NCBI GenBank assembly: GCA_947172415.1
Contig: OX359200.1
Span: 64,501 to 128,500, forward strand
Length of the DNA: 64,000 bases
Source of the DNA: Chondrosia reniformis
Taxonomy: Eukaryota; Porifera; Demospongiae; Chondrillida; Chondrillidae
Direction of reading: 5' to 3'
Shown: one piece after another, positions 3,001 to 50,907 of the stretch
How positions within the stretch are numbered: the first letter of the stretch is position 1
Layout: the number at the start of each line of letters is the position of its first letter
Made by a program: the position numbers and the translations under genes
The notes under the pieces: model-generated
Seen by the model: only the letters and a program-made list of their open reading frames with translations
Database searches by the model: none
Told to the model about the DNA's origin: nothing

Positions 3001-3381
3001 AGATAATCAAACCACAAGTGTTTCCAGCCCACATGCTGTATTGTGGTTTATGTAGAATGTGTTTGCAACTGGTGGTCCCACACTGACTGAAGGATTTAGG
3101 GAGAGACTGGCTCAAGAGGTCTTGGCTATACGACCTTTCAACTCCCCATTCACTATCAACTGCGCTAGTAAGTACTCCACAACCACAACCATTTCAATTA
3201 CCACCAGATATATAATGCATTAGATGACAAACTGCTGGACGGCTGGAAGGGAGCTGCAAAATGGAGCAGAGGATTGGACAACAAGCAGTACTTTATCACG
3301 AGATCCGAATACCAGGAACACGGAAAAGACTTCATTAAACCTTTTAACTCATCTAACCCTTACACCAAACTTCACGTCTAA
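62..3381 (+). CDS. ACTR5: Actin-related protein 5 (INO80 complex subunit), 15 exons
   Basis: ARP5 is a nuclear actin-fold subunit of the INO80 chromatin remodeller. Joined exons: 62-71, 117-340, 437-547, 606-717, 772-867, 939-1138, 1695-1808, 1861-1971, 2042-2119, 2173-2473, 2532-2602, 2664-2821, 2880-2997, 3056-3167, 3224-3381, giving 657 aa in one frame (human about 607). Recognisable ARP5 blocks in order are [59 protein letters not shown], a lysine/arginine-rich coiled insert, [35 protein letters not shown] and the C-terminal [13 protein letters not shown] block. The start is inferred: the first 10 nt, followed by a 45-bp GT-AG intron, gives the only in-frame ATG. Intron 7 (1809-1860) has a GC donor. 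Intron 6 is swollen by a minisatellite. The family call is secure; the first exon is less so. Confidence 0.93.
1146..1652. repeat. 20-bp intronic minisatellite (CCTAGCCTGCCTCCCCTCCC)
   Basis: About 25 tandem copies of a pyrimidine-only-like 20-bp unit fill ACTR5 intron 6 (1139-1694). Copies vary mainly at one C/T position (CCCC versus CTCC). The strand asymmetry is strong. The array accounts for this intron being about ten times longer than its neighbours. Confidence 0.95.
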
Positions 3382-16857: not shown

Positions 16858-18201
16858 CTACAGTGACTGATAGGAGGAGAGAACATGTTCTGTTTCCAAT
16901 AGAGCATCTATGAAGGTATCTTCTTCTAACCCATACCGGAGGTACTGGTAAAGGAAGGCCTTTGTAGAGTACTTTTGTGACACACGAGTACACAATGAGT
17001 CCAGCAGGCCTACCAGACCCTGTCCATTGTACAGCACTGCACCTGACTTTTCATAGCCATTCATCTTATGTGGATGGCAGAATGTTGACAATCCCTCTCC
17101 AGTCGGAGAGAGAGCACTAAACAGATCGGGATTAGTGAAGGAGGTGACGTCCACCTGAGGGGCCAAGGCTCCTCTCAAGTGAAGGGACACTGCCAAGTTC
17201 CTGTTTGTCTTGTAGAGAGGACATCTGGTTGTCTCAGATGGCAGTGTAGCAGACCAGTTGAGTCCCTCTTCCAAAGCAGTCGCAGTTACCAGCATTTGTC
17301 GGAGATGCTTGAGCAGGCCAGGCCACGTGTAGCTGCTGAACGCCTGAGAGGCCTCGGGCACCTGTGGGATGCTTGCAAGAGAGAGGAGCTTGTACTGAGG
17401 ATGAGCTACAAGGTGACTGATTACATCACCAAAGTGAAAGGATCGTGCACCACTCCATGGGGAGCTAAGGGAATTCCCCCTTTTTGTTGCTGGTTGTAGT
17501 ACACTTGCTAGCTCATGGCAAATAACTTTGTTAATACTGCCAAAGGAGATTTGCTTCAAGTTTAACAGTTTAGAACATATTTTGTGCATGTCATCATTTG
17601 AAATGACTAGCACAGCATCAGAAGAAGAATGTAACTTTGAAAGTGTCAAGATTGTATTGTAGTCTTGCACAATCACTTCTCCACTAGAGTATGGCCAAGT
17701 AATCTGATTGGCTACAAAGCAGTGACTGTAGTTGTCTTGCAACAGCTCAGTAACATATGTTCCTACTCCAGAGCCTGTTCCACCCGCCACACTCATGAGC
17801 ACCAGAAAGGAGCCAAAGCGGTCGCACTGTTCCAACTGTCTCTGAACCATATCCAGGACACTATTCTCCATTGCGGGGGCGTGCACACAGTAGCCATTTC
17901 CCCAATTGTTACCAGAACCTCTCGTTTGACTGTATACGCACTTCGGATCGTATTGAAGAAAGCTACTTCGGGACTGTTCCAAACACTGTTGAATCACTTT
18001 ATGTTCCATGTCTATCAAAATAGCTCGCGCTGTCAGCTTCTTACGACTCGAATCTTCGATAAAGAACCTGTTAAGAGAAATACTTTCATAATCCAAGTGC
18101 CCAGACGTTCTGGCTGACGTGCAGTCGTTTAATATTGTTCTACTCAAACGATTGCCAATTTGATTCCCGCATTGTCCTATCTGTATGCAAACCACTGCCA
18201 T
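16858..18201 (-). CDS. TUBD1: Delta-tubulin, intronless
   Basis: Delta-tubulin is needed for triplet microtubules of centrioles and basal bodies. This is a single 447-aa open frame starting MAVVCIQIGQCGNQIG. The tubulin signature GGTGSG (about residues 138-143) lies in MSVAGGTGSGVG. Delta-specific segments are RGSGNNWGNGYCVH, NQITWPYSSGEVIVQDYN and KQISFGSINKV. The length matches the family (human 453). No intron interrupts it, unlike most neighbours. An upstream in-frame start would add nine residues before the conserved Met, but the tubulin N-terminus fixes the start at 18201. Confidence 0.95.
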   Translation of the reverse strand: MAVVCIQIGQCGNQIGNRLSRTILNDCTSARTSGHLDYESISLNRFFIEDSSRKKLTARAILIDMEHKVIQQCLEQSRSSFLQYDPKCVYSQTRGSGNNWGNGYCVHAPAMENSVLDMVQRQLEQCDRFGSFLVLMSVAGGTGSGVGTYVTELLQDNYSHCFVANQITWPYSSGEVIVQDYNTILTLSKLHSSSDAVLVISNDDMHKICSKLLNLKQISFGSINKVICHELASVLQPATKRGNSLSSPWSGARSFHFGDVISHLVAHPQYKLLSLASIPQVPEASQAFSSYTWPGLLKHLRQMLVTATALEEGLNWSATLPSETTRCPLYKTNRNLAVSLHLRGALAPQVDVTSFTNPDLFSALSPTGEGLSTFCHPHKMNGYEKSGAVLYNGQGLVGLLDSLCTRVSQKYSTKAFLYQYLRYGLEEDTFIDALLETEHVLSSYQSL

Positions 18202-18540
18202 AATGGAGAAAGATATAAAGGAAACCACAAGTCTTTGGTAAAGTTGTAAATAGCTACTACAAATACTTTCAACCTACCTATTCAGAGTGACATTCTACTC
18301 ATTATAAATTGGTAATGAGGTTTGTAGACAAATTAGCTTTACGATATTCGGATAATAGTACATAATCGCAGAGCTGTTTCATTTCCATTACATTTAACAT
18401 TAGTGACTACTTTGTGTGCTGATTCACGAATGGTAGCTACAGTTCGTCAACTATACTATTTGCGTTAATAATTACAAATTTATAATCTATATTCAAGCAT
18501 ACATTGCAATTTTAAAACTAATTACTAAAATATTTCATAT
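18202..18540. other. AT-rich intergenic DNA upstream of TUBD1
   Basis: The stretch is AT-rich with no convincing exon, RNA gene or full satellite monomer. The TUBD1 promoter is presumably at its left end. The right end grades into the first, partial satellite monomer. Confidence 0.6.
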
Positions 18541-18680
18541 CATGGCACTGTCAAATGCAAAGATATGAAGCTGTAACTTGGTTTCAGCATTCACAGACAT
18601 GTATGAAACAGGTCCAGTGAGTTATTGAAATTTTTATAAATCTTTACATTTGCCCTATCTCTCACTATACATTAATTTCG

Positions 18681-19741
18681 TATATATATGCCAGGTAATT
18701 GCTTAATGTTAAAAATGGCCGACCCTAAGAAGTATAAACAAATTCAGTACCATGTATATATAGATCTGATAGACTAGAGCGCTTTCAAAGATTTCTTCTG
18801 AGCATAGATATGCACTGTGTAGTAGGTGACTGTTTGTGAACTAGTTATCTATCCATATGTACTATATGGATGTCGCTTAAAGTGAAATTTCGTCAATCGA
18901 CGGCCAACGAAACTCCAAAGAAAAAAAGTTGGACCATACCGAACGCTACCATCCACGACGCTCAGAGGCCGGGATCGGTGGTAACGCTCTGCCGAGTTGA
19001 GCTTTGGGTGTCACTTGCGTGAGAAGAACCAGTTCTTCTCGATATGGCCGACTCATATGAATCCTAAGATATCAGATGCCAATCCCACATACGTGGAACC
19101 CCCCCGAAATCCGGATTATTGGTGAGCACGTCTCTATGGCACCAACCGATTAGGAGACAGCTTCAGAGTCTAAGCGCTACCAACCTCTATGGGAACCGCT
19201 ACCACCATAGAGATGTGTCCAGGTAGGCCTACTTTATAAGGTTTTTTGCCTCTATTTAAACAACAAAATTTCCAAAGAAAACGGTTGTGGTTGGCGCTAT
19301 TCCATACTTAAGAATAGGGTATTTGCGAGAAAAATATGGTCCAATTATTTCTCGTTAATTACAGATCAGGGCATCGTTTCAAGCAATTTTGCACATATAC
19401 TCCGTATTTGTGGTCCATCTCGAAACTGGAGAAACTGGATAAAATCCTGTGTGTGTCTCCATAGGCCGAGGAGAACGGCTTTTCCGGTCCCATGTAGAAA
19501 CGATTTTAGCGAGAGGTGTTCCGATATAAACGATTAATACTACAAACAGACACACTCAATCTCAAGTGCTGTAAAACGATAATGGCTGCTGACTTCTATA
19601 TAGATACCTTCTGATAGCTGTGTTTGGACTGTCTGTGTGTTTCTAGTTGGCCCCAGGTATGTAAAATGTTTTAGACTCAGGAGTTCCGATATTGTGTATG
19701 AAATTATCGGACGATATATATGTACTATATAGAAATTTCAT
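18681..19741. repeat. Interspersed 1.06-kb unit, copy 1
   Basis: This reference copy starts in TATATATGCCAGGTAATTGC and ends in ATATAGAAATTTCATG. Inverted repeats are at 18851-18871 (ATCCATAT/ATATGGAT), 18960-19002 (bulged), 19021-19040 (GAGAAGAACCAGTTCTTCTC), 19108-19117 (AATCCGGATT), 19126-19139 with 19205-19218, and 19297-19317. It is distinctly less AT-rich than the monomers. No open frame of note and no recognisable transposon termini or target-site duplication were seen. Confidence 0.9.
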
Positions 19742-21598
19742 GTGTACATTTAATTCAGTTCTGTAACCTGTCAAATTGATATATATGAAGCTAAAACTTG
19801 GTGTCAACATTTACAGACATGTATGAAACAGGTCCAGTGGGTTATTGAAATTTTTATAAATCTTTACATTTGCCCTATCTCTCACCATACATTAAATTGG
19901 TATACCAGTATTGTAATGTACATTTGGCTCTGTAACTCTGCCAAATGGAAAGATATAAAGCTGTAACTTGGTTTCAGCATTCACAGACATGTATGAAACA
20001 GGTCCAGTGAGTTATTGAAATTTTTATAAATCTTTACATTTGCCCTATCTCTCACCATACATTAAATTCATATACCAGTATTGTAATGTACATTTGTCTC
20101 TGTAACTCTGCCAAATGGAAAGATATAAAGCTGTAACTTGGTTTCAGCATTCACAGACATGTATGAAACAGGTCGAGTGGGTTATTGAAATTTTTATAAA
20201 TCTTTACATTTGCCCTATCTCTCACCATACATTAAATTGGTATACCAGTTTTGTAATGTACATTTGGCTCTGTAACTCTGCCAAATGGAAAGATATGAAG
20301 CTGTAACTGGTTTCAGCATTCACAGACATGTATGAAACATTTGCTGTGGGATTTTGAAATTTTTATAAATCTTTACATTTGCCCTATCTCTCACCATACA
20401 TTAAATTGGTATACCAGTATTGTAATGTACATTTGGCTCTGTAACTCTGCCAAATGGAAAGATATGAAGCTTAAACTTGGTTTCAGCATTCACAGACATG
20501 TATGAAACAAGTCCAGTGAGTTATTGAAATTTTTATAAATCTTTACATTTGCCCTATCTCTCACAATACATTAAATTCGTATACCAGTTTTGTAATGGAC
20601 ATTTGGCTCTGTAACTCTGCCAAATGGAAAGATATGAAGCTGTAACGTGGTGTCAACATTCACAGACATGTATGAAACAAGTCCAGGGGGTTATTGAAAT
20701 TTTAATAAATCATTACATTTGCCCTATCTCTCACCATACATTAAATTCGTATACCAGTATTGTAATGGACATTTGGCTCTGTAACTCTGCCAAATGGAAA
20801 GATATGAAGCTGTAACGTGGTGTCAACATTCACAGACATGTATGAAACAAGTCCAGTGGGTTATTGAAATTTTTATAAATCTTAACATTTGCCCTATCTC
20901 TCACCATACATTAAATTCGTATACCAGTATTGTAATGTACATTTGGCTCTGTAACTCTGTCAAATTGATATATATGAAGCTTAAACTTGGCGTCAACATT
21001 CACAGACATGTATGAAACAGGTCCAGTGGGTTATTGAAATTTTTATAAATCTTTACATTTGCCCTATCTCTCACCATACATTAAATTCGTATACCAGTAT
21101 TGTAATGTACATTTGGCTCTGTAACTCTGCCAAATGGAAAGATATGAAGCTGTAACTTGGTTTCAGCATTCACAGACATGTATGAAACATTTGCTGTGGG
21201 ATTTTGAAATTTTTATAAATCTTTACATTTGCCCTATCTCTCACCATACATTGAATTGGTATACCAGTATTGTAATGTACATTTGGCTCTGTAACTCTGC
21301 CAAATGGAAAGATATGAAGCTGTAACTGGTTTCAGCATTCACAGACATGTATGAAACAAGTCCAGTGGGTTATTGAAATTTTTATAAATCTTAACATTTA
21401 CCCTATCTCTCACCATACATTGAATTGGTATACCAGTATTGTAATGTACATTTAGCTCTGTAACTCTGACAAATGGAAAGATATGAAGCTGTAACTTGGT
21501 TTCAGCATTCACAGACATGTATGAAACAAGTCCAGTGAGTTATTGAAATTTTTATAAATCTTTACATTTTCCCTATCTCTCACTATACATTAATTTCG

Positions 21599-22660
21599 TA
21601 TATATATGCCAGGTAATTGCTTAATGTTAAAAATGGCCGACCCTAAGAAGTATAAACAAATTCAGTACCATGTATATATAGATCTGATAGACTAGAGCGC
21701 TTTCAAAGATTTCTTCTGAGCATAGATATGCACTGTGTAGTAGGTGACTGTTTGTGAACTAGTTATCTATCCATATGTACTATATGGATGTCGCTTAAAG
21801 TGAAATTTCGTCAATCGACGGCCAACGAAACTCCAAAGAAAAAAAGTTGGACCATACCGAACGCTACCATCCACGACGCTCAGAGGCCGGGATCGGTGGT
21901 AACGCTCTGCCGAGTTGAGCTTTGGGTGTCACTTGCGTGAGAAGAACCAGTTCTTCTCGATATGGCCGACTCATATGAATCCTAAGATATCAGATGCCAA
22001 TCCCACATACGTGGAACCCCCCCGAAATCCGGATTATTGGTGAGCACGTCTCTATGGCACCAACCGATTAGGAGACAGCTTCAGAGTCTAAGCGCTACCA
22101 ACCTCTATGGGAACCGCTACCACCATAGAGATGTGTCCAGGTAGGCCTACTTTATAAGGTTTTTTGCCTCTATTTAAACAACAAAATTTCCAAAGAAAAC
22201 GGTTGTGGTTGGCGCTATTCCATACTTAAGAATAGGGTATTTGCGAGAAAAATATGGTCCAATTATTTCTCGTTAATTACAGATCAGGGCATCGTTTCAA
22301 GCAATTTTGCACATATACTCCGTATTTGTGGTCCATCTCGAAACTGGAGAAACTGGATAAAATCCTGTGTGTGTCTCCATAGGCCGAGGAGAACGGCTTT
22401 TCCGGTCCCATGTAGAAACGATTTTAGCGAGAGGTGTTCCGATATAAACGATTAATACTACAAACAGACACACTCAATCTCAAGTGCTGTAAAACGATAA
22501 TGGCTGCCTACTTCTATATAGATACCTTCTGATAGCTGTGTTTGGACTGTCTGTGTGTTTCTAGTTGGCCCCAGGTATGTAAAATGTTTTAGACTCTGGA
22601 GTTCCGATATTTTGTATGAAAATATCGGACGATATATATGTACTATATAGAAATTTCATG
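21599..22660. repeat. Interspersed 1.06-kb unit, copy 2
   Basis: Nearly identical to copy 1. Differences include GGCTGCCTAC for GGCTGCTGAC near the right end and CATGTACATTT for CATGTGTACATTT at the right junction. Downstream monomers match those after copy 5 at a constant offset of 11470 bp. Confidence 0.9.
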
Positions 22661-25196
22661 TACATTTAATTCAGTTCTGTAACTCTGTCAAATTGATATA
22701 TATGAAGCTAAAACTTGGTGTCAACATTCACAGACATGTATGAAACAGGTCCAGTGGGTTATTGAAATTTTTATAAATCTTTACATTTGCCCTATCTCTC
22801 ACCATACATTAAATTGGTATACCAGTATTGTAATGTACATTTGGCTCTGTAACTCTGCCAAATGGAAAGATATGAAGCTGTAACTGGTTTCAACATTCAC
22901 AGACATGTTTGAAACATTTGCTGTGGGATTTTGAAATTTTTATAAATCTTTACATTTGCCCTATCTCTCACCATACATTAAATTCGTATACCAGTATTGT
23001 AATGTACATTTGGCTCTGTAACTCTGCCAAATGGAAAGATATAAAGCTGTAACTTGCTTTCAGCATTCACAGACATGTATGAAACATTTGCTGTGAGATT
23101 TTGATATTTTTATAATTCTTTACATTTTCCCTATCTCTCACCATACATTCAATTGGTATACCAGTATTGTAATGTACATTTGGCTCTGTCACTCTGCCAA
23201 ATGGAAAGATATGAAGCTGTAACTTGGTTTCAGCATTCACAGACATGTATGAAACATTTGCTGTGGGATTTTGAATTTTTTGTAATTCTTTACATTTGCC
23301 CTATCTCTCACCATACATTAAATTCGTATACCAGTATTGTAATGTACATTTGGCTCTGTAACTCTGCCAAATGGAAAACTATAAAGCTGCAACTTGGTTT
23401 CAGCATTCACAGACTTGTATGAAACAAGTCCAGTGGGTTATGGAAATTTTTCTAAATCTTTACATTTGCCCTATCTCTCACCATACATTAAATTCGTATA
23501 CCATTATTGTAATGTACATTTGGCTCTGTAACTCTGCCAAATGGAAAGATATGAAGCTTAAACTTGGTTTCAGCATTCACAGACATGTATGAAACAGGTC
23601 CAGTGGGTTATTGAAATTTTTATAAATCTTTACATTTGCCCTATCTCTCACAATACATTAAATTCATATACCAGTATTGTAATGTACATTTGGCTCTGTG
23701 ACTCTATCAAATGGAAAGATATGAAGCTGTAACTTGGTTTCAGCATTCACAGACATGTATGAAACAAGTCCAGTGGGTTATTGAAATTTTTATAAATCTT
23801 TACATTTGCCCTATTTCTCACCATACATTGAATTGGTATACCAGTATTGTAATGTACATTTAGCTCTGTAACTCTGCCAAATGGAAAGATATGAAGCTGT
23901 AACTTGGTTTCAGCATTCACAGACATGTATGAAACATTTGCTGTGGGATTTTGAATTTTTTGTAATTCTTTACATTTGCCCTATCTCTCACCATACATTA
24001 AATTCGTATACCAGTATTGTAATGTACATTTGGCTCTGTAACTCTGCCAAATGGAAAACTATAAAGCTGCAACTAGGTTTCAGCATTCACAGACTTGTTT
24101 GAAACAAGTCCAGTGGGTTATGAAAATTTTTCTAAATCTTTACATTTGCCCTATCTCTCACCATACATTAAATTCGTATACCATTATTGTAATGTACATT
24201 TGGCTCTGTAACTCTGCCAAATGGAAAGATATGAAGCTTAAACTTGGTTTCAGCATTCACAGACATGTATGAAACAAGTCCAGTGGGTTATTGAAATTTT
24301 TATAAATCTTTACATTTGCCCTATCTCTCACAATACATTAAATTCGTATACCAGTTTTGTAATGTACATTTGGCTCTGTAACTCTGTCAAATTGATATAT
24401 ATGAAGCTTAAACTTGGCGTCAACATTCACAGACATGTATGAAACAGGTCCAGTGGGTTATTGAAATTTTTATAAATCTTTACATTTGCCCTATCTCTCA
24501 CCATACATTAAATTGGTATACCAGTATTGTAATGTACATTTGGCTCTGTAACTCTGCCAAATGGAAAGATATGAAGCTGTAACTTGGTTTCAGCATTCAC
24601 AGACATGTATGAAACATTTGCTGTGGGATTTTGAAATTTTTATAAATCTTTACATTTGCCTTATCTCTCACCATACATTGAATTGGTATAACAGTATTGT
24701 AATGTACATTTGGCTCTGTAACTCTGCCAAATGGAAAGATATGAAGCTGTAACTGGTTTCAGCATTCACAGACATGTATGAAACAAGTCCAGAGGGTTAT
24801 TGAAATTTTTATAAATCTTAACATTTGCCCTATCTCTCACCATACATTGAATTGGTATACCAGTAAAGTAATGTACATTTGGCTCTGTAACTCTGACAAA
24901 TGGAAAGATATGAAGCTGTAACTTGGTTTCAGCATTCACAGACATGTATGAAACAAGTCCAGGGGGTTATTGAAATTTTTATAAATCTTTACATTTGCCC
25001 TATTTCTCACCATACATTGAATTGGTATACCAGTATTGTAATGTACATTTAGCTCTGTAACTCTGACAAATGGAAAGATATAAAGCTGTAACTTGGTTTC
25101 AGCATTCACAGACATGTATGAAACAAGTCCAGTGAGTTATTGAAATTTTTATAAATCTTTACATTTGCCCTATCTCTCACTATACATTAATTTCGT

Positions 25197-26258
25197 ATAT
25201 ATATGCCAGGTAATTGCTTAATGTTAAAAATGGCCGACCCTGAGAAGTATAAACAAATTCAGTACCATGTATATATAGATCTGATAGACTAGAGCGCTTT
25301 CAAAGATTTCTTCTGAGCATAGATATGCACTGTGTAGTAGGTGACTGTTTGTGAACTAGTTATCTATCCATATGTACTATATGGATGTCGCTTAAAGTGA
25401 AATTTCGTCAATCGACGGCCAACGAAACTCCAAAGAAAAAAAGTTGGACCATACCGAACGCTACCATCCACGACGCTCAGAGGCCGGGATCGGTGGTAAC
25501 GCTCTGCCGAGTTGAGCTTTGGGTGTCACTTGCGTGAGAAGAACCAGTTCTTCTCGATATGGCCGACTCATATGAATCCTAAGATATCAGATGCCAATCC
25601 CACATACGTGGAACCCCCCCGAAATCCGGATTATTGGTGAGCACGTCTCTATGGCACCAACCGATTAGGAGACAGCTTCAGAGTCTAAGCGCTACCAACC
25701 TCTATGGGAACCGCTACCACCATAGAGATGTGTCCAGGTAGGCCTACTTTATAAGGTTTTTTGCCTCTATTTAAACAACAAAATTTCCAAAGAAAACGGT
25801 TGTGGTTGGCGCTATTCCATACTTAAGAATAGGGTATTTGCGAGAAAAATATGGTCCAATTATTTCTCGTTAATTACAGATCAGGGCATCGTTTCAAGCA
25901 ATTTTGCACATATACTCCGTATTTGTGGTCCATCTCGAAACTGGAGAAACTGGATAAAATCCTGTGTGTGTCTCCATAGGCCGAGGAGAACGGCTTTTCC
26001 GGTCCCATGTAGAAACGATTTTAGCGAGAGGTGTTCCGATATAAACGATTAATACTACAAACAGACACACTCAATCTCAAGTGCTGTAAAACGATAATGG
26101 CTGCTGACTTCTATATAGATACCTTCTGATAGCTGTGTTTGGACTGTCTGTGTGTTTCTAGTTGGCCCCAGGTATGTAAAATGTTTTAGACTCTGGAGTT
26201 CCGATATTTTGAATGAAAATATCGGACGATATATATGTACTATATAGAAATTTCATGT
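25197..26258. repeat. Interspersed 1.06-kb unit, copy 3
   Basis: Carries CCTGAGAAG where copies 1, 2, 4 and 7 have CCTAAGAAG. Its right-end hairpin is perfect: CCGATATTTT at 26201-26210 and AAAATATCGG at 26216-26225. Confidence 0.9.
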
Positions 26259-27772
26259 GTACATTTAATTCAGTTCTGTAACCTGTCAAATTGATATATA
26301 AGAAGCTAAAACTTGGTGTCAACATTCACAGACATGTATGAAACAGGTCCAGTGGGTTATTGAAATTTTTATAAATCTTTACATTTGCCCTATCTCTCAC
26401 CATACATTAAATTGGTATACCAGTATTGTAATGTACATTTGTTTCTGTTACTCTGCCAAATGGAAAGATATAAAGCTGTAACTTGGTTTCAGCATTCACA
26501 GACATGTAGGAAACAGGTCCAGTGGGTTATTGAAATTTTTATAAATCTTTACATTTGCCCTATCTCTCACCATACATTAAATTCGTATACCAGTATTGTA
26601 ATGTACATTTGTCTCTGTAACTCTGCCAAATGGAAAGATATGAAGATGTAACTGGTTTCAGCATTCACAGACATGTATGAAACATTTGCTGTGGGATTTT
26701 GAAATTTTTATAAATCTTTACATTTGCCCTATCTCTCACCATACATTAAATTGGTATACCAGTATTGTAATGTACATTTGGCTCTGTAACTCTGCCAAAT
26801 GGAAAGATATAAAGCTGTAACTTGGTTTCAGCATTCACAGACATGTATGAAACAAGTCCAGTGGGTTATTGAAATTTTTATAAATCTTAACATTTGCCCT
26901 ATCTCTCACCATACATTGAATTGGTATACCAGTATTGTAATGTACATTTAGCTCTGTAACTCTGCCAAATGGAAAGATATAAAGCTGTAACTTGGTTTCA
27001 GCATTCACAGACATGTATGAAACAGGTCCAGTGAGTTATTGAAATTTTTATAAATCTTTACATTTGCCCTATCTCTCACCATACATTAAATTGGTATACC
27101 AGTATTGTAATGTACATTTGTCTCTGTAACTCTGTCAAATGGAAAGATATAAAGCTGTAACTTGGTTTCAGCATTCACAGACATGTATGAAACAGGTCCA
27201 GTGGGTTATTGAAATTTTTATAAATCTTTACATTTGCCCTATCTCTCACCATACATTAAATTGGTATACCAGTATTGTAATGTACATTTGGCTCTGTAAC
27301 TCTGCCAAATGGAAAGATATGAAGCTGTAACTGGTTTCAGCATTCACAGACATGTATGAAACATTTGCTGTGGGATTTTGAAATTTTTATAAATCTTTAC
27401 ATTTGCCCTATCTCTCACCATACATAAAATTGGTATACCAGTATTTTAATGTACATTTGGCTCTGTAACTCTGCCAAATGGAAAGATATGAAGCTGTAAC
27501 TGGTTTCAGCATTCACAGACATGTATGAAACATTTGCTGTGGGATTTTGAAATTTTTATAAATCTTTACATTTGCCCTATCTCTCACCATACATTGAATT
27601 GGTATACCAGTATTGTAATGTACATTTGGCTCTGTAACTCTGACAAATGGAAAGATATGAAGCTGTAACTTGGTTTCAGCATTCACAGACATGTATGAAA
27701 CAAGTCCAGGGGGTTATTGAAATTTTTATAAATCTTTACATTTGCCCTATTTCTCACTATACATTAATTTCG

Positions 27773-28833
27773 TATATATATGCCAGGTAATTGCTTAATG
27801 TTAAAAATGGCCGACCCTAAGAAGTATAAACAAATTCAGTACCATGTATATATAGATCTGATAGACTAGAGCGCTTTCAAAGATTTCTTCTGAGCATAGA
27901 TATGCACTGTGTAGTAGGTGACTGTTTGTGAACTAGTTATCTATCCATATGTACTATATGGATGTCGCTTAAAGTGAAATTTCGTCAATCGACGGCCAAC
28001 GAAACTCCAAAGAAAAAAAGTTGGACCATACCGAACGCTACCATCCACGACGCTCAGAGGCCGGGATCGGTGGTAACGCTCTGCCGAGTTGAGCTTTGGG
28101 TGTCACTTGCGTGAGAAGAACCAGTTCTTCTCGATATGGCCGACTCATATGAATCCTAAGATATCAGATGCCAATCCCACATACGTGGAACCCCCCCGAA
28201 ATCCGGATTATTGGTGAGCACGTCTCTATGGCACCAACCGATTAGGAGACAGCTTCAGAGTCTAAGCGCTACCAACCTCTATGGGAACCGCTACCACCAT
28301 AGAGATGTGTCCAGGTAGGCCTACTTTATAAGGTTTTTTGCCTCTATTTAAACAACAAAATTTCCAAAGAAAACGGTTGTGGTTGGCGCTATTCCATACT
28401 TAAGAATAGGGTATTTGCGAGAAAAATATGGTCCAATTATTTCTCGTTAATTACAGATCAGGGCATCGTTTCAAGCAATTTTGCACATATACTCCGTATT
28501 TGTGGTCCATCTCGAAACTGGAGAAACTGGATAAAATCCTGTGTGTGTCTCCATAGGCCGAGGAGAACGGCTTTTCCGGTCCCATGTAGAAACGATTTTA
28601 GCGAGAGGTGTTCCGATATAAACGATTAATACTACAAACAGACACACTCAATCTCAAGTGCTGTAAAACGATAATGGCTGCTGACTTCTATATAGATACC
28701 TTCTGATAGCTGTGTTTGGACTGTCTGTGTGTTTCTAGTTGGCCCCAGGTATGTAAAATGTTTTAGACTCAGGAGTTCCGATATTTTGTATGAAATTATC
28801 GGACGATATATATGTACTATATAGAAATTTCAT
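27773..28833. repeat. Interspersed 1.06-kb unit, copy 4
   Basis: With its downstream monomers this copy repeats copy 1 at a constant offset of 9092 bp for about 1.7 kb. It shares rare variants such as GGTCGAGTGGG (20172 and 29264). Confidence 0.9.
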
Positions 28834-31800
28834 GTGTACATTTAATTCAGTTCTGTAACCTGTCAAATTGATATATATGAAGCTAAAACTTGGTGTCAAC
28901 ATTTACAGACATGTATGAAACAGGTCCAGTGGGTTATTGAAATTTTTATAAATCTTTACATTTGCCCTATCTCTCACCATACATTAAATTGGTATACCAG
29001 TATTGTAATGTACATTTGGCTCTGTAACTCTGCCAAATGGAAAGATATAAAGCTGTAACTTGGTTTCAGCATTCACAGACATGTATGAAACAGGTCCAGT
29101 GAGTTATTGAAATTTTTATAAATCTTTACATTTGCCCTATCTCTCACCATACATTAAATTCATATACCAGTATTGTAATGTACATTTGTCTCTGTAACTC
29201 TGCCAAATGGAAAGATATAAAGCTGTAACTTGGTTTCAGCATTCACAGACATGTATGAAACAGGTCGAGTGGGTTATTGAAATTTTTATAAATCTTTACA
29301 TTTGCCCTATCTCTCACCATACATTAAATTGGTATACCAGTTTTGTAATGTACATTTGGCTCTGTAACTCTGCCAAATGGAAAGATATGAAGCTGTAACT
29401 GGTTTCAGCATTCACAGACATGTATGAAACATTTGCTGTGGGATTTTGAAATTTTTATAAATCTTTACATTTGCCCTATCTCTCACCATACATTAAATTG
29501 GTATACCAGTATTGTAATGTACATTTGGCTCTGTAACTCTGCCAAATGGAAAGATATGAAGCTTAAACTTGGTTTCAGTATTCACAGACATGTATTAAAC
29601 AGGTCCAGTGGGTTATTGAAATTTTTATAAATCTTTACATTTGCCCTATCTCTCACCATACATTAAATTGGTATACCAGTATTGTAATGTACATTTGGCT
29701 CTGTAACTCTGCCAAATGGAAAAATATGAAGCTGTAACTTGGTTTCAGCATTCACAGACATGTATGAAACAAGTCCAGGGGGTTATTGAAATTTTTATAA
29801 ATCTTTACATTTGCCCTATCTTTCATCGTACATTAAATTCGTATACCAGTATTGTAATATACATTTGGCTCTGTTACTCTGCCAAATGGAAAGATATGAA
29901 GCTTAAACTTAGTTTCAGCATTCACGGACATGTATGAAATAGGTCCAGTGGGTTATTGAAATTTTTATAAATCTTTACATTTGCCCTATCTCTCACCATA
30001 CATTAAATTGGTATACCAGTATTGTAATGTACATTTGGCTCTGTTACTCTGCCAAATGGAAAGATATGAAGCTGTAACTGGTTTCAGCATTCACAGACAT
30101 GTATGAAACATTTACTGTGGGATTTTGAAATTTTTATAAATCTTTACATTTGCCCTATCTCTCACCATACATTAAATTGGTATACCAGTATTGTAATGTA
30201 CATTTGGCTCTGTAACTCTGCCAAATGGAAAAATATGAAGCTGTAACTTGGTTTCAGCATTCACAGACATGTATGAAACAAGTCCAGGGGGTTATTGAAA
30301 TTTTTATAAATCTTTACATTTGCCCTATCTTTCATCATACATTAAATTCGTATACCAGTATTGTAATGTACATTTGGCTCTGTTACTCTGCCAAATGGAA
30401 AGATTTGAAGCTTAAACTTAGTTTCATCATTCACAGACATGTATGAAATAGGTCCAGTGGGTTATTGAAATTTTTATAAATCTTTACATTTGCCCTATCT
30501 CTCACCATACATTAAATTCGTATACCAGTATTGTAATGTACATTTGGCTCTGTAACTCTGCCAAATGGAAAGATATAAAGCTTAAACTTGGTTTCAGCAT
30601 TCACAGACATGTATTAAACAGGTCCAGTGGGTTATTGAAATTTTTATAAATCTTAACATTTGCCCTATCTCTCACCATACATTAAATTGGTATACCAGTA
30701 TTGTAATGTACATTTGGCTCTGTTACTCTGCCAAATGGAAAGATATGAAGCTGTAACTGGTTTCAGCATTCACAGACATGTATGAAACATTTACTGTGGG
30801 ATTTTGAAATTTTTATAAATCTTTACATTTGCCCTATCTCTCACCATACATTAAATTCGTATACCAGTATTGTAATGTACATTTGGCTCTGTAACTCTGC
30901 CAAATGGAAAAATATGAAGCTGTAACTTGGTTTCAGCATTCACAGACATGTATGAAACAAGTCCAGGGGGTTATTGAAATTTTTATAAATCTTTACATTT
31001 GCCCTATCTTTCATCATACATTAAATTCATATACCAGTATTGTAATGTACATTTGGCTCTGTTACTCTGCCAAATGGAAAGATTTGAAGCTTAAACTTAG
31101 TTTCATCATTCACAGACATGTATGAAATAGGTCCAGTGGGTTATTGAAATTTTTATAAATCTTTACATTTGCCCTATCTCTCACCATACATTAAATTCGT
31201 ATACCAGTATTGTAATGTACATTTGGCTCTGTAACTCTGCCAAATGGAAAGATATAAAGCTTAAACTTGGTTTCAGCATTCACAGACATGTATTAAACAG
31301 GTCCAGTGGGTTATTGAAATTTTTATAAATCTTAACATTTGCCCTATCTCTCACCATACATTAAATTGGTATACCAGTATTGTAATGTACATTTAGCTCT
31401 GTAACTCTGCCAAATGGAAAGATATGAAGCTGTAACTTGGTTTCAGCATTCACAGACATGTATGAAACAAGTCCAGTGGGTTATTGAAATTTTTATAAAT
31501 CTTTACATTTGCCCTATCTCTCACCATACATTAAATTCGTATACCAGTATTGTAATGTACATTTGGCTCTGTAACTCTGCCAAATGGAAAGATATGAAGC
31601 TGTAACTGGTTTCAGCATTCACAGACATGTATGAAACATTTACTGTGGGATTTTGAAATTTTTATAAATCTTTACATTTGCCCTATCTCTCACCATACAT
31701 TAAATTGGTATACCAGTATTGTAATGTACATTTGGCTCTGTAACTCTGACAAATGGAAAAATATGAAGCTGTAACTTGGTTTCAGCATTCACAGACATGT

Positions 31801-33068
31801 ATGAAACAAGTCCAGGGGGTTATTGAAATTTTTATAAATCTTTACATTTGCCCTATCTTTCATCATACATTAAATTCGTATACCATTATTGTAATGTACA
31901 TTTGGCTCTGTTACTCTGCCAAATGGAAAGATTTGAAGCTTAAACTTAGTTTCATCATTCACAGACATGTATGAAATAGGTCCAGTGGGTTATTGAAATT
32001 TTTATAAATCTTTACATTTGCCCTATCTCTCACCAAACATTAAATTCGTATACCAGTATTGTAATGGACATTTGGCTCTGTAACTCTGCCCAATGGAAAG
32101 ATATGAAGCTGTAACTTGGTTTCAGCATTCACAGACATGTATGAAACAGGTCCAGGGGGTTATTGAAATTTTTATAAATCTTAACATTTGCCCTATCTCT
32201 CACCATACATTAAATTCGTATACCAGTATTGTAATGTACATTTGGCTCTGCAACTCTGCCAAATGGAAAGATATGAAGCTGTAACTTGGTTTCAGCATTC
32301 ACAGACATGTATGAAACATTTGCTGTGGGATTTTGAAATTTTTATAAATCTTTACATTTGCCCTATCTCTCACCATACATTAAATTCGTATACCAGTATT
32401 GTAATGTACATTTGTCTCTGTAACTCTGCCAAATGGAAAGATATGAAGCTTAAACTTAGTTTCAGCATTCACGGACATGTATGAAATAGGTCCAGTGGGT
32501 TATTGAAATTTTTATAAATCTTTACATTTGCACTATCTCTCACCATACATTAAATTGGTATACCAGTATTGTAATGTACATTTGGCTCTGTAACTCTGCC
32601 AAATGGAAAAATATGAAGCTGTAACTTGGTTTCAGTATTCACAGACATGTATGAAACAAGTCCAGTGGGATTTTGAAATTTATATAATTCTTTACATTTG
32701 CCCTATCTCTAACCATACATTAAATTCGTATAACAGTATTGTAATGTACATTTGGCTCTGTAACTCTGCCAAATGGAAAGATATGAAGCTTAAAGTTGGT
32801 TTCAGCATTCACAGACATGTATGAAACAAGTCCAGTGGGTTATTGAAATTTTTATAAATCTTTACATTTGCCCTATCTCTCACCATACATTAAATTGGCA
32901 TACCAGTATTGTAATGTACATTTGGCTCTGTGACTCTATCAAATGGAAAGATATGAAGTTGTAACTTGGTTTCAGCATTCACAGACATGTATGAAACAGG
33001 TCCAGTGGGTTATTGAAATTTTTATAAATCTTTACATTTTCCCTATCTCTCACTATACATTAATTTCG

Positions 33069-34130
33069 TATATATATGCCAGGTAATTGCTTAATGTTAA
33101 AAATGGCCGACCCTGAGAAGTATAAACAAATTCAGTACCATGTATATATAGATCTGATAGACTAGAGCGCTTTCAAAGATTTCTTCTGAGCATAGATATG
33201 CACTGTGTAGTAGGTGACTGTTTGTGAACTAGTTATCTATCCATATGTACTATATGGATGTCGCTTAAAGTGAAATTTCGTCAATCGACGGCCAACGAAA
33301 CTCCAAAGAAAAAAAGTTGGACCATACCGAACGCTACCATCCACGACGCTCAGAGGCCGGGATCGGTGGTAACGCTCTGCCGAGTTGAGCTTTGGGTGTC
33401 ACTTGCGTGAGAAGAACCAGTTCTTCTCGATATGGCCGACTCATATGAATCCTAAGATATCAGATGCCAATCCCACATACGTGGAACCCCCCCGAAATCC
33501 GGATTATTGGTGAGCACGTCTCTATGGCACCAACCGATTAGGAGACAGCTTCAGAGTCTAAGCGCTACCAACCTCTATGGGAACCGCTACCACCATAGAG
33601 ATGTGTCCAGGTAGGCCTACTTTATAAGGTTTTTTGCCTCTATTTAAACAACAAAATTTCCAAAGAAAACGGTTGTGGTTGGCGCTATTCCATACTTAAG
33701 AATAGGGTATTTGCGAGAAAAATATGGTCCAATTATTTCTCGTTAATTACAGATCAGGGCATCGTTTCAAGCAATTTTGCACATATACTCCGTATTTGTG
33801 GTCCATCTCGAAACTGGAGAAACTGGATAAAATCCTGTGTGTGTCTCCATAGGCCGAGGAGAACGGCTTTTCCGGTCCCATGTAGAAACGATTTTAGCGA
33901 GAGGTGTTCCGATATAAACGATTAATACTACAAACAGACACACTCAATCTCAAGTGCTGTAAAACGATAATGGCTGCCTACTTCTATATAGATACCTTCT
34001 GATAGCTGTGTTTGGACTGTCTGTGTGTTTCTAGTTGGCCCCAGGTATGTAAAATGTTTTAGACTCAGGAGTTCCGATATTGTGTATGAAAATATCGGAC
34101 GATATATATGTACTATATAGAAATTTCATG
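33069..34130. repeat. Interspersed 1.06-kb unit, copy 5
   Basis: It has the CCTGAGAAG and GGCTGCCTAC variants, like copy 6. Copies 5 and 6 with flanking monomers form a 2068-bp tandem duplication. Confidence 0.9.
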
Positions 34131-35136
34131 TACATTTAATTCAGTTCTGTAACTCTGTCAAATTGATATATATGAAGCTAAAACTTGGTGTCAACATTCA
34201 CAGACATGTATGAAACAGGTCCAGTGGGTTATTGAAATTTTTATAAATCTTTACATTTGCCCTATCTCTCACCATACATTAAATTGGTATACCAGTATTG
34301 TAATGTACATTTGGCTCTGTAACTCTGCCAAATGGAAAGATATGAAGCTGTAACTGGTTTCAACATTCACAGACATGTTTGAAACATTTGCTGTGGGATT
34401 TTGAAATTTTTATAAATCTTTACATTTGCCCTATCTCTCACAATACATTAAATTCGTATACCAGTATTGTAATGTACATTTGTCTCTGTAACTCTGCCAA
34501 ATGGAAAGATATGAAGCTTAAACTTAGTTTCAGCATTCACGGACATGTATGAAATAGGTCCAGTGGGTTATTGAAATTTTTATAAATCTTTACATTTGCA
34601 CTATCTCTCACCATACATTAAATTGGTATACCAGTATTGTAATGTACATTTGGCTCTGTAACTCTGCCAAATGGAAAAATATGAAGCTGTAACTTGGTTT
34701 CAGTATTCACAGACATGTATGAAACAAGTCCAGTGGGATTTTGAAATTTTTATAAATCTTTACATTTGCACTATCTCTCACCATACATTAAATTGGTATA
34801 CCAGTATTGTAATGTACATTTGGCTCTGTAACTCTGCCAAATGGAAAGATATGAAGCTTAAAGTTGGTTTCAGCATTCACAGACATGTATGAAACAAGTC
34901 CAGTGGGTTATTGAAATTTTTATAAATCTTTACATTTGCCCTATCTCTCACCATACATTAAATTGGCATACCAGTATTGTAATGTACATTTGGCTCTGTG
35001 ACTCTATCAAATGGAAAGATATGAAGTTGTAACTTGGTTTCAGCATTCACAGACATGTATGAAACAGGTCCAGTGGGTTATTGAAATTTTTATAAATCTT
35101 TACATTTTCCCTATCTCTCACTATACATTAATTTCG

Positions 35137-36198
35137 TATATATATGCCAGGTAATTGCTTAATGTTAAAAATGGCCGACCCTGAGAAGTATAAACAAATT
35201 CAGTACCATGTATATATAGATCTGATAGACTAGAGCGCTTTCAAAGATTTCTTCTGAGCATAGATATGCACTGTGTAGTAGGTGACTGTTTGTGAACTAG
35301 TTATCTATCCATATGTACTATATGGATGTCGCTTAAAGTGAAATTTCGTCAATCGACGGCCAACGAAACTCCAAAGAAAAAAAGTTGGACCATACCGAAC
35401 GCTACCATCCACGACGCTCAGAGGCCGGGATCGGTGGTAACGCTCTGCCGAGTTGAGCTTTGGGTGTCACTTGCGTGAGAAGAACCAGTTCTTCTCGATA
35501 TGGCCGACTCATATGAATCCTAAGATATCAGATGCCAATCCCACATATGTGGAACCCCCCCGAAATCCGGATTATTGGTGAGCACGTCTCTATGGCACCA
35601 ACCGATTAGGAGACAGCTTCAGAGTCTAAGCGCTACCAACCTCTATGGGAACCGCTACCACCATAGAGATGTGTCCAGGTAGGCCTACTTTATAAGGTTT
35701 TTTGCCTCTATTTAAACAACAAAATTTCCAAAGAAAACGGTTGTGGTTGGCGCTATTCCATACTTAAGAATAGGGTATTTGCGAGAAAAATATGGTCCAA
35801 TTATTTCTCGTTAATTACAGATCAGGGCATCGTTTCAAGCAATTTTGCACATATACTCCGTATTTGTGGTCCATCTCGAAACTGGAGAAACTGGATAAAA
35901 TCCTGTGTGTGTCTCCATAGGCCGAGGAGAACGGCTTTTCCGGTCCCATGTAGAAACGATTTTAGCGAGAGGTGTTCCGATATAAACGATTAATACTACA
36001 AACAGACACACTCAATCTCAAGTGCTGTAAAACGATAATGGCTGCCTACTTCTATATAGATACCTTCTGATAGCTGTGTTTGGACTGTCTGTGTGTTTCT
36101 AGTTGGCCCCAGGTATGTAAAATGTTTTAGACTCAGGAGTTCCGATATTTTGTATGAAAATATCGGACGATATATATGTACTATATAGAAATTTCATG
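35137..36198. repeat. Interspersed 1.06-kb unit, copy 6
   Basis: This is the duplicate of copy 5 at an offset of 2068 bp. Its one notable private change is CATATGTGG for CATACGTGG near 35546. Confidence 0.9.
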
Positions 36199-38562
36199 TA
36201 CATTTAATTCAGTTCTGTAACCTGTCAAATTGATATATATGAAGCTAAAACTTGGTGTCAACATTCACAGACATGTATGAAACAGGTCCAGTGGGTTATT
36301 GAAATTTTTATAAATCTTTACATTTGCCCTATCTCTCACCATACATTAAATTGGTATACCAGTATTGTAATGTACATTTGGCTCTGTAACTTTGCCAAAT
36401 AGAAAGATATAAAGCTGTAACTTGGTTTCAGCATTCACAGACATGTATGAAACAGGTCCAGTGGGTTATTGAAATTTTTATTAATCTCTACATTTGCCCT
36501 ATCTCTCACCATACATTAAATTCGTATACCAGTATTGTAATGTACATTTGGCTCTGTAACTTTGCCAAATAGAAAGATATAAAGCTGTAACTTGGTTTCA
36601 GCATTCACAGACATGTATGAAACAGGTCGAGTGGGTTATTGAAATTTTTATAAATCTTTACATTTGCCCTATCTCTCACCATACATTAAATTCGTATACC
36701 AGTATTGTAATGTACATTTGGCTCTGTAACTCTGCCAAATAGAAAGATATAAAGCTGTAACTTGGTTTCAGCATTCACAGACATGTATGAAAGAGGTCCA
36801 GTGGGTTATTGAAATTTTTATAAATCTTTACATTTGCCCTATCTCTCACCATACATTAAATTCGTATACCAGTATTGTAATGTACATTTGGCTCTGTAAC
36901 TCTGCCAAATAGAAAGATATAAAGCTGTAACTTGGTTTCAGCATTCACAGACATGTATGAAACATTTGCTATGGGATTTTGAAATTTTTATAAATCTTTA
37001 CATTTGCCCTATCTTTCATCATAAATTAAATTCGTATACCAGTATTATAATGTACATTTGGCTCTGTAACTCTGCCAAATGGAAAGATATGAAGCTTAAA
37101 CTTGGTTTCAGCATTCACAGACATGTATTAAACATTTACTGTGGGATATTGAAATTTTTATAAATCTTTACATTTGCCCTATCTTTCATCACACATTAAA
37201 TTCGTATACCAGTATTGTAATGTACATTTGGCTCTGTAACTCTGCCAAATGGAAAGATATGAAGCTTAAACTTGGTTTCAACATTCACAGACATGTATGA
37301 AACAGGTCCAGTGGTTATTGAAATTTTTATAAATCTTTACATTTGCCCTATCTCTCACAATACATTAAATTCGTATACCAGTATTGTAATGTACATTTGG
37401 CTCTGTAACTCTGCCAAATGGAAAAATATGAAGCTGTAACTTAGTTTCAGCATTCACAGACATGTATGAAACAGGTCCAGTGGGTTATTGAAATTTTTAT
37501 AAATCTTTACATTTGCCCTATCTCTCACCATACATTAAATTCGTATACCAGTAATGTAATGTACATTTGTCTCTGCAACTCTGCCAAATGGAAAAATATG
37601 AAGCTTAAACTTGGTTTCAGCATTCACAGACATGTATGAAACATTTGCTGTGGAATTTTGAAATTTTTATAATTCTTTACATTTGCCCTATCTCTCACCA
37701 TACATTAAATTCGTATACCAGTATTGTAATGTACATTTGGCTCTCTAACTCTGCCAAATGGAAAGATATGAAGCTGTAACTGGTTTCAGCATTCACAGAC
37801 ATGTATGAAACATTTGCTGTGGGATTTTGAAATTTTTATAAATCTTTACATTTGCCATATCTCTCACCATACATTAAATTGGTATACCAGTATTGTAATG
37901 TACATTTGGCTCTGTAACTCTGCCAAATGGAAAAATATGAAGCTGTAACTTGGTTTCAGCATTCACAGACATGTATGAAATAGGTCCATTGGGTTATTGA
38001 AATTTTTATAAATCTTTACATTTGCCCTATCTCTCACCATACATTAAATTCGTATACCAGTAATGTAATGTACATTTGGCTCTGTAACTCTGCCAAATGG
38101 AAAAATATGAAGCTGTAACTTGGTTTCAGCATTCACAGACATGTATGAAACAAGTCCAGTGGGTTATTGAAATTTTTATAAATCTTTAAATTTGCCATAT
38201 CTCTCACCATACATTAAATTCGTATACCAGTATTGTAATGGACATTTGGCTCTGTAACTCTGCCAAATGGAAAGATATGAAGCTTAAACTTGGTTTCAGC
38301 ATTCACAGACATGTATGAAACAAGTCCAGGGGGTTATTGAAATTTTTATAAATCTTAACATTTGCCCTATCTCTCACCATACATTAAATTGGTATACCAG
38401 TATTGTAATGTACATTTGGCTCTGTGACTCTATCAAATGGAAAGATTTGAAGTTGTAACTTGGTTTCAGCATTCACAGACATGTATGAAACAAGTCCAGT
38501 GGGTTATTGAAATTTTTATAAATCTTTACATTTGCCCTATCTCTCACTATACATTAATTTCG

Positions 38563-39622
38563 TATATATATGCCAGGTAATTGCTTAATGTTAAAAATGG
38601 CCGACCCTAAGAAGTATAAACAAATTCAGTACCATGTATATATAGATCTGATAGACTAGAGCGCTTTCAAAGATTTCTTCTGAGCATAGATATGCACTGT
38701 GTAGTAGGTGACTGTTTGTGAACTAGTTATCTATCCATATGTACTATATGGATGTCGCTTAAAGTGAAATTTCGTTAATCGACGGCCAACGAAACTCCAA
38801 AGAAAAAAAGTTGGACCATACCGAACGCTACCATCCACGACGCTCAGAGGCCGGGATCGGTGGTAACGCTCTGCCGAGTTGAGCTTTGGGTGTCACTTGC
38901 GTGAGAAGAACCAGTTCTTCTCGATATGGCCGACTCATATGAATCCTAAGATATCAGATGCCAATCCCACATACGTGGAACCCCCCCGAAATCCGGATTA
39001 TTGGTGAGCACGTCTCTATGGCACCAACCGATTAGGAGACAGCTTCAGAGTCTAAGCGCTACCAACCTCTATGGGAACCGCTACCACCATAGAGATGTGT
39101 CCAGGTAGGCCTACTTTATAAGGTTTTTTGCCTCTATTTAAACAACAAAATTTCCAAAGAAAACGGTTGTGGTTGGCGCTATTCCATACTTAAGAATAGG
39201 GTATTTGCGAGAAAAATATGGTCCAATTATTTCTCGTTAATTACAGATCAGGGCATCGTTTCAAGCAATTTTGCACATATACTCCGTATTTGTGGTCCAT
39301 CTCGAAACTGGAGAAACTGGATAAAATCCTGTGTGTGTCTCCATAGGCCGAGGAGAACGGCTTTTCCGGTCCCATGTAGAAACGATTTTAGCGAGAGGTG
39401 TTCCGATATAAACGATTAATACTACAAACAGACACACTCAATCTCAAGTGCTGTAAAACGATAATGGCTGCTGACTTCTATATAGATACCTTCTGATAGC
39501 TGTGTTTGGACTGTCTGTGTGTTTCTAGTTGGCCCCAGGTATGTAAAATGTTTTAGACTCAGGAGTTCCGATATTTTGAATGAAAATATCGGACGATATA
39601 TATGTACTATATAGAAATTTCA
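38563..39622. repeat. Interspersed 1.06-kb unit, copy 7
   Basis: The rightmost copy. It has one private change, TTCGTTAATCGAC for TTCGTCAATCGAC near 38775. Its right-end hairpin is perfect, as in copy 3. Confidence 0.9.
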
Positions 39623-40857
39623 TGTACATTTAATTCAGTTCTGTAACCTGTCAAATTGATATATATGAAGCTAAAACTTGGTGTCAACATTCACAGACAT
39701 GTATGAAACAGGTCCAGTGGGTTATTGAAATTTTTATAAATCTTTACATTTGCCCTATCTCTCACCATACATTAAATTGGTATACCAGTATTGTAATGTA
39801 CATTTGGCTCTGTAACTCTGCCAAATGGAAAGATATAAAGCTGTAACTTGGTTTCAGCATTCACAGACATGTATGAAACAGGTCCAGTGGGTTATTGAAA
39901 TTTTTATAAATCTTTACATTTGCCCTATCTCTCACCATACATTAAATTGGTATACCAGTATTGTAATGTACATTTGGCTCTGTAACTCTGCCAAATGGAA
40001 AGATATGAAGCTTAAACTTGGTTTCAGCATTCACAGATATGTATGAAACATTTGCTGTGGGATTTTGAAATTTTTATAATTCTTTACATTTTCCCTATCT
40101 CTCACCATACATTAAATTGGTATACCAGTATTGTAATGTACATTTGGCTCTGTAACTCTGCCAAATGGAAAGATATGAAGCTGTAACTTGGTTTCAACAT
40201 TCACAGACATGTATGAAATATTTGCTGCGGGATTTTGAATTTTTTGTAATTCTTTACATTTGCCCTATCTCTCACCATACATTAAATTCGTATACCAGTA
40301 TTGTAATGTACATTTGGCTCTGTAACTCTGCCAAATGGAAAACTATAAAGCTGTAACTTGGTTTCAGCATTCACAGACATGTATGAAACAGGTCCAGTGG
40401 GTTATGGAAATTTTTATAAATCTTTACATTTGCCCTATCTCTCACCATACATGAAATTCGTATACCAGTATTGTAATGTACATTTGGCTCTGTAACTCTG
40501 CCAAATGGAAAGATATGAAGCTGTAACTTGGTTTCAGCATTCACAGACATGTATGAAACAAGTCCAGTGGGTTATTGAAATTTTTATAAATCTTTAAATT
40601 TGCCATATCTCTCACCATACATTAAATTCGTATACCAGTATTGTAATGGACATTTGGCTCTGTAACTCTATCAAATGGAAAGATATGAAGCTAACACTTC
40701 TTATCAGCATTCACAGACATGTATGAAACATTTCCTGTGGGTTATTGAAATTTTTATAAATCTTTACATTTGCCCTATCTCTCACCATACATTAATTTCG
40801 TATACCAATATTGTAATGTACATTTGTCTCTGTCAAATGGAAGGATATGATATATAA

Positions 40858-41454: not shown

Positions 41455-50907
<9,453 letters not shown>

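Follow-up and report, generated by a model that had tools for sequence, protein, structure and literature searches.

A window of 64,000 nucleotides from the sponge Chondrosia reniformis (contig C12, positions 64501-128500) contains an array of a 170-bp satellite in which seven near-identical units of about 1.07 kb are embedded. These units constitute a real feature, which is best read as a highly amplified family of small nuclear RNA (snRNA)-type genes residing inside the satellite. According to our analysis, each unit is probably a gene for a structured non-coding RNA of ~305-340 nt, located on the minus strand, with an external snRNA-type promoter, most likely served by RNA polymerase III (Pol III), and ending at a run of T (T-run). 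This reading is favoured because the promoter boxes keep a fixed spacing, a T-run follows, and the RNA body is conserved well above its surroundings. A structured non-coding RNA had been one of the guesses of a preliminary description of this DNA; the same three features support the gene, although on the opposite strand, while compensatory changes in the stems did not stand out clearly from controls.

On the minus strand of each unit, a proximal sequence element (PSE; AACCACAAYCGTTTYC), a TATA box (TWTAAATAGARG), a predicted RNA body of ~305 nt and a T-run follow one another. In unit 1 (18676..19750), delimited by aligning the units, the PSE AACCACAACCGTTTTC, recognised with a promoter motif from U1 and U2 genes, lies at 19277..19292, the 12-base TATA box TTTAAATAGAGG at 19249..19260, and the predicted RNA at 18921..19231, of which 18921-18927 form its T7. 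The RNA start, placed at 19230/19231, was deduced from the RNase P RNA gene, whose own start was read from end complementarity.

The PSE motif derives from a weight matrix built on the U1 and U2 genes of the same genome (7 U1 and 6 U2 matches found), with one weak U2 match (L046), whose upstream region repeats that of L041, excluded when building the motif. The sequence [AG]ACCACAANNNTTT starts at -56 or -57 in 13 of 13 U1/U2 matches, and the matrix detects the motif on the window minus strand in all seven units, as well as in the units of the other loci fetched from the genome; downstream of it, the units have the box T[AT]TAAATAGA[AG]G. A total of 52 units was scored, many being near copies of one another. 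The PSE starts exactly 60 nt upstream of GTAGGCC in 51 of them by script, and reading of the 52nd (L033, too close to the locus end for the script) gave the same position; the TATA box starts exactly 28 nt before GTAGGCC in all 52, and the intervening sequence occurs in 14 distinct versions, every one of 44 nt. After the RNA body, the script found a T-run in 49/52 units, each with at least 4 T; L013 and L033, which it missed, have T7 and T6 with the adjacent base changed, and in L016 the position is cut off by the locus end, so that all 51 testable units carry a T-run.

The RNase P RNA gene (L061, C6:7092698) shares with the units a PSE-like motif, an [AT]TAAATA box at offset 33 from the PSE (ATAAATA in RNase P, TTAAATA in the window units), and a T-run after an RNA of ~300 nt; it differs in having one genome match and a known family, whereas the unit RNA has ~880 word matches and no known family. 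Among 43 PSE-like sites (≤1 mismatch) located outside the units in 329,267 bases, U1/U2 included, that of RNase P is the sole one with [AT]TAAATA within 28-40 nt. In six of the 13 U1/U2 matches the box is TTTATAA, with an offset of 27-28, and the PSE-to-TATA spacing of the units is 5-6 nt longer than at these TATA-bearing genes. In insects and plants, the choice between Pol II and Pol III is reported to depend on box type or spacing (PMC9841428, in the portion of the article used here), and following this logic the difference of 5-6 nt would indicate the Pol III rather than the Pol II type. A plus-strand reading, with the conserved block as PSE and the GGTTTT after the core as terminator, was dropped, given that the U1/U2-derived motif sits on the minus strand.

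Alignment of units from separate clusters revealed a near-constant centre with divergent flanks on both sides. In an ungapped comparison of 29 units from 26 loci (excluding L011, L015, L017, L021, L026 and L027, neighbours of clusters already included, and L033, near a locus end), the PSE differed by 6.1% on average, the spacer by 31.1%, the TATA box by 7.5%, the stretch between the TATA box and the start by 9.2%, and RNA nt 1-137 by 1.4%; the contrast in variable columns between promoter boxes and spacers gave p = 0.007 (Fisher). A gapped alignment of 18 hand-picked units, with the decayed fragment L055 left out, gave 23.1% upstream of the PSE, 6.2% in the PSE, 32.5% in the spacer, 7.9% in the TATA box, 0.4-3.9% across the RNA, taken in three parts, 6.2% directly past it, and 12.5-14.6% further on; here the RNA segment ends at 18929, and the T-run is counted in the following segment. 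The ungapped value for -110..-61 (40.1%) is inflated by insertions and deletions (indels), the aligned stretch just upstream of the PSE being that with 23.1%.

In our reading, conserved boxes and a quiet body alternating with a free spacer are the trace of a gene, and a conversion tract would hardly produce such a pattern. The main competing explanation is that of a selfish, functionless passenger, whose core was recently copied into older satellite units, either by gene conversion or through unequal exchange, and whose uniformity would reflect recency rather than selection. Near-identity of the units inside a cluster is what such a process would leave, as are chimaeric units, e.g., L013, which belongs to one subfamily in one part and to another in the rest; however, a conversion tract is hardly expected to leave out the 16-nt spacer that separates the conserved boxes and has the same length in all 52 units, or to coincide with the PSE, the TATA box and the T-run, and we therefore regard the passenger as unlikely. 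Decayed relatives of the unit are present as L055 and as an inverted fragment in L036 (a partial unit at ~218-581, abutting a complete unit), which suggests an old family whose copies do change when not under selection.

Several points weigh against an snRNA-type Pol III gene. The U6 (L039) and MRP (L060) genes have a TATA box without such a PSE, as judged by eye, and the assignment to Pol III depends on a single comparator, the RNase P RNA gene. Moreover, AACCACAANNNTTT is common in the window, with 5 exact occurrences against 0.02 expected in the 40.4 kb outside the array, and given this over-representation the motif alone is no proof of an snRNA promoter. Part of the uniformity could be explained by gene conversion. 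Finally, the stability predicted for the fold is only mildly above that of shuffles (z -1.85, with 3 of 100 shuffles equally stable), the RNA varies too little, and covariation does not clearly exceed that of controls.

Regarding the fold, 49 copies yielded 31 distinct predicted RNAs of 309-341 nt; in their 31-row alignment, window unit 1, one T short, stands for the identical copy L027. The predicted common fold begins at nt 1, ends immediately ahead of the U tail and consists of three closed domains. A double change occurs in 1 of 106 pairs (2 cells); the covariation score is matched by 26 of 500 shuffles and the number of double-change pairs by 218 of 500. Minor alleles at paired columns preserve the pair in 13 of 25 cases, against an expectation of 0.195 for any change and 0.585 for transitions only, which gives no clear structural signal. 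Variable columns amount to 23/212 among paired and 19/93 among unpaired positions (p = 0.03), and 5 of 7 indel groups fall in unpaired columns, in both cases with a structure drawn from the same alignment. Given the modest stability and the unclear covariation, the three-domain fold stays a prediction, and the compensatory changes in stems looked for at the suggestion of the preliminary description were not borne out. The inverted repeats it named are present in the unit (by eye): GAGAAGAACCAGTTCTTCTC, AATCCGGATT and the pair GCACGTCTCTATGG/CCATAGAGATGTGT lie within the predicted RNA, the hairpin ATCCATAT/ATATGGAT past its terminator, and CTATTC/GAATAG and CCGATATTTT/AAAATATCGG upstream of the promoter. 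The 14-bp stem formed by GCACGTCTCTATGG/CCATAGAGATGTGT is one of two mutually exclusive pairings; its letters are there, but the predicted fold prefers the alternative, in which CUCUAUGG pairs with the nearer CCAUAGAG rather than with its 14-bp partner.

The family extends well beyond the window. Searches of the genome (117,379,552 bases in 15 contigs), allowing ≤3 mismatches, gave 876 matches (441 + 435) for an RNA-interior 50-mer, 891 for the RNA 5' end, 758 for a PSE/promoter word and 351 for a 42-mer located in the unit's far part, these being counts of words and not of complete units; backwards control words gave 0 (50-mer), 0 (42-mer), 1 (promoter) and 0 (RNA start). For U6, U1, U2, MRP and P RNA, 1-7 matches each were obtained as lower bounds, compared with 876-891 for the RNA words, i.e., more than 100 times those of each splicing RNA searched. 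A second, weaker U6 match of 52 bits (C8:5459986-5460088) is perhaps a pseudogene. A longer form of the RNA carries an insertion of ~20-33 nt, and the word for this longer form was matched 113 times in the genome. In a DNA search, the best 40 of 968 candidates scored were distributed on C1, C7, C10, C12, C13 and C14, and among 100 exact 50-mer matches listed, 70 were on chromosome 1 and the other 30 on chromosome 2, all within its first 0.57 Mb. By hand count, the listed chromosome 1 matches form 21 groups >50 kb apart, with none at 2.99-5.68 Mb, and because of this dispersal a centromere element, another of the initial guesses, is disfavoured.

We fetched 20 stretches, each 7-10 kb long, and 10 shorter ones (2-2.5 kb) from C1; in all, about 50 of ~880 copies were examined. 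All those of 2-10 kb with a unit also contain the satellite, while L023-L025 contain neither. Of 47 scored copies, 35 are oriented relative to the satellite as in the window, 11 are reversed and 1 is undecided. The window subfamily forms a second cluster ~60 kb beyond the first, at C12:164825-183485, with four inverted units 98-99% identical. A non-autonomous transposable element, perhaps of the rolling-circle type, with the satellite as its preferred target, would account for the occurrence on several chromosomes in both orientations and for a hairpin near one end. Against it, conservation is in the middle and not at the ends, the satellite accompanies the unit in every fetched stretch that contains one, and the edges of the arrays, compared in three loci, have no end in common and fall at different monomer phases (by eye). 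In the fetched stretches, with about 50 of ~880 copies, no solitary copies with common ends or target duplications were seen. We consider a transposon highly improbable, and the dead transposon envisaged earlier is disfavoured on these grounds. As a separate observation, the far junction with the satellite consists of the telomere repeat TTAGGGTTAG in 17 of the 47 units, 532-543 nt downstream of the RNA start; such junctions occur in L009, L011-L018 and L020-L022, and TTAGGGTTAG is absent from the window.

As for the identity of the RNA, no named family in Rfam fits the predicted molecule: a search with 5 kb gave no match up to E = 1, and the core alone gave just two short pseudoknot matches far under the cut-offs (E 0.26 and 3). 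The possibility of a known RNA in disguise, i.e., a sponge 7SK, spliced-leader or telomerase RNA, was also weighed. The promoter class and size of the unit RNA would suit 7SK, and the high copy number would suit a spliced leader, but the absence of an Rfam match speaks against all three. In addition, 7SK has a paired GAUC in its 5' hairpin, whereas the window RNA has a single GAUC at nt 256, and the longer form L054 has two, both in the 3' part. A trans-spliced leader of ~37 bp has been reported in the glass sponge Aphrocallistes vastus, according to the part of PMC10282587 consulted, which leaves a spliced-leader RNA worth considering even though our simple word scan found no Sm-like word in the window RNA, and AAUUUG occurs in the inserted stretch of two longer forms. 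For telomerase RNA, neither the window RNA nor either of the two longer forms that were scanned contains a circular permutation of CCCUAA, while TTAGGG repeats are present in the genome. Taken together, a member of any of these families appears quite improbable.

Other candidates were rejected. A short interspersed nuclear element (SINE) does not agree with the simple word scan, which found no A or B box in the window RNA, nor with the promoter and flanks being repeated as part of the unit, unlike the SINE criterion in which upstream sequence is not copied. A hammerhead satellite or retrozyme was discarded, as there was no hammerhead match in Rfam and no CUGANGA in the window RNA. Protein coding was set aside as well: the largest open reading frame (ORF) among those ≥40 aa in and around unit 1 has 58 aa, and subfamilies differ in the core by indels of 1, 2 and 5 bases. 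Searches for relatives with an exact 29-mer in viral contigs and an exact 28-mer in prokaryote genomes gave 0 matches each, and no description of this satellite or RNA was found among the open-access papers listed.

We infer from the sequence that the units are transcribed, by Pol III rather than Pol II and from the exact start given above, and that selection and concerted evolution act on them. In the mechanism that we propose, the PSE (near -62) and the TATA box (near -30) of each unit would allow the PSE-binding complex and the TATA-binding protein to recruit Pol III, and transcription would yield an RNA of ~305 nt with a U tail, ended at the T-run. The satellite arrays would act as the amplification vehicle, unequal exchange multiplying and homogenising the gene, while selection on the RNA and the promoter boxes would remove most variants and exchange between copies (concerted evolution) would keep them alike. 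High gene number usually accompanies RNAs required in bulk, and our working guess is that this RNA, like the products of 5S rRNA or spliced-leader RNA genes, is needed in bulk rather than being locus-specific. More tentatively, the family may be a new and abundant class of Pol III RNA, with ~880 near-identical genes on many chromosomes amplified and homogenised by the satellite, whose product might act on satellite chromatin or serve a bulk role (spliced-leader-like or ribosome-related). Pairing of the RNA with the satellite was set aside, the longest exact antisense match being 7 nt. Satellite DNA is usually read as passive; in this sponge it seems to harbour hundreds of ready promoters and genes for a single RNA. 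If expressed, the family would offer a clean system for asking how the uniformity of a dispersed multi-copy RNA gene is maintained by selection, and a test of whether satellites spread by carrying useful genes.

In comparison with known systems, multi-copy arrays of 5S rRNA or spliced-leader RNA genes show, as the units do, a uniform transcribed part, a variable spacer and hundreds of copies. However, 5S genes have an internal promoter, and spliced-leader RNAs are shorter and have an Sm site, and the sponge units match neither. The closest precedent is that of newt satellite 2 and the salamander retrozymes, where, as predicted for the unit arrays, a satellite is reported to have its own snRNA-type promoter (PMC2220036, a beetle satellite paper, and PMC7229834, in the sections used). 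In those accounts, the ~330-bp repeat itself contains both promoter and hammerhead ribozyme, with transcription reportedly by Pol II, whereas the sponge has a separate 1.07-kb gene unit among 170-bp monomers, with a TATA box, a T-run and no ribozyme match. The same portion of PMC2220036 mentions a satellite of schistosomes whose Pol III promoter is functional and which in being read by Pol III resembles the predicted sponge gene; the title of a work cited there mentions hammerhead ribozymes, for which the sponge unit gave no match. Unlike the satellites treated in that portion, the sponge unit can lie either way round among the short monomers, and its body and promoter boxes are better conserved than what surrounds them. 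In Hymenoptera, telomerase RNA with a type 3 promoter is likewise an unexpected animal RNA recognised by its PSE and TATA box (PMC9841428, same portion), and it differs from the unit RNA, which has no TTAGGG template word.

Within the window, the array extends over 18545..40850 with no strand assigned (Tandem Repeats Finder row 19760-40833; outer edges by eye and approximate). The remaining units, all on the minus strand, were located by alignment to unit 1 and their PSE and TATA boxes by motif; their positions are as follows, the T7 being the first seven bases of each RNA interval. Unit 2 (21594..22661) has its PSE at 22195..22210, TATA box at 22167..22178 and RNA at 21839..22149 (T7 21839-21845); unit 3 (25191..26265), at 25792..25807, 25764..25775 and 25436..25746 (T7 25436-25442); unit 4 (27768..28842), at 28369..28384, 28341..28352 and 28013..28323 (T7 28013-28019); unit 5 (33064..34131), at 33665..33680, 33637..33648 and 33309..33619 (T7 33309-33315); unit 6 (35132..36199), at 35733..35748, 35705..35716 and 35377..35687 (T7 35377-35383); and unit 7 (38558..39625), at 39159..39174, 39131..39142 and 38803..39113 (T7 38803-38809). 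The predicted RNA is identical in 6 of the 7, that of unit 6 differing by one base from the others, and also in one copy of the inverted cluster at C12:165-183 kb.

These data agree with the preliminary description in that the seven units are near-identical, units 2-7 being 99.44-99.91% identical to unit 1 with unit lengths of 1068-1075 bp, and in that every unit occupies the same site within the 170-bp monomer, with junctions as described. It was also correct that units vary less than monomers: 9 of 1060 ungapped columns are variable among the seven units (mean pairwise difference 0.4%), against an average difference of 6.5% among 66 of the 80 monomers, each of exactly 170 bp, the other 14, of 169 bp each, having been excluded. 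The promoter and RNA (372 bases) hold just 1 of the 9 variable columns.

Outside the array, exact copies of AACCACAANNNTTT lie at window positions 3009 (+), 3180 (+), 18222 (+), 43462 (+) and 45845 (-). Two sites precede an ATG ORF at 3224 by 44 and 215 bp, one is near the start of a tubulin-family ORF, and one is within an ORF that looks helicase-like by eye only; AACCACAANNNTTT may be a general promoter element of C. reniformis, serving other genes too. The tubulin-family ORF (16858-18228, minus strand; 456 aa, uninterrupted, Pfam Tubulin) starts ~320 bp from the satellite array. The window also contains minisatellites with 17-39-bp units in ~18-26 copies each, at 1144-1651, 7497-7890, 49979-50572, 53494-54261 and 61774-62189.

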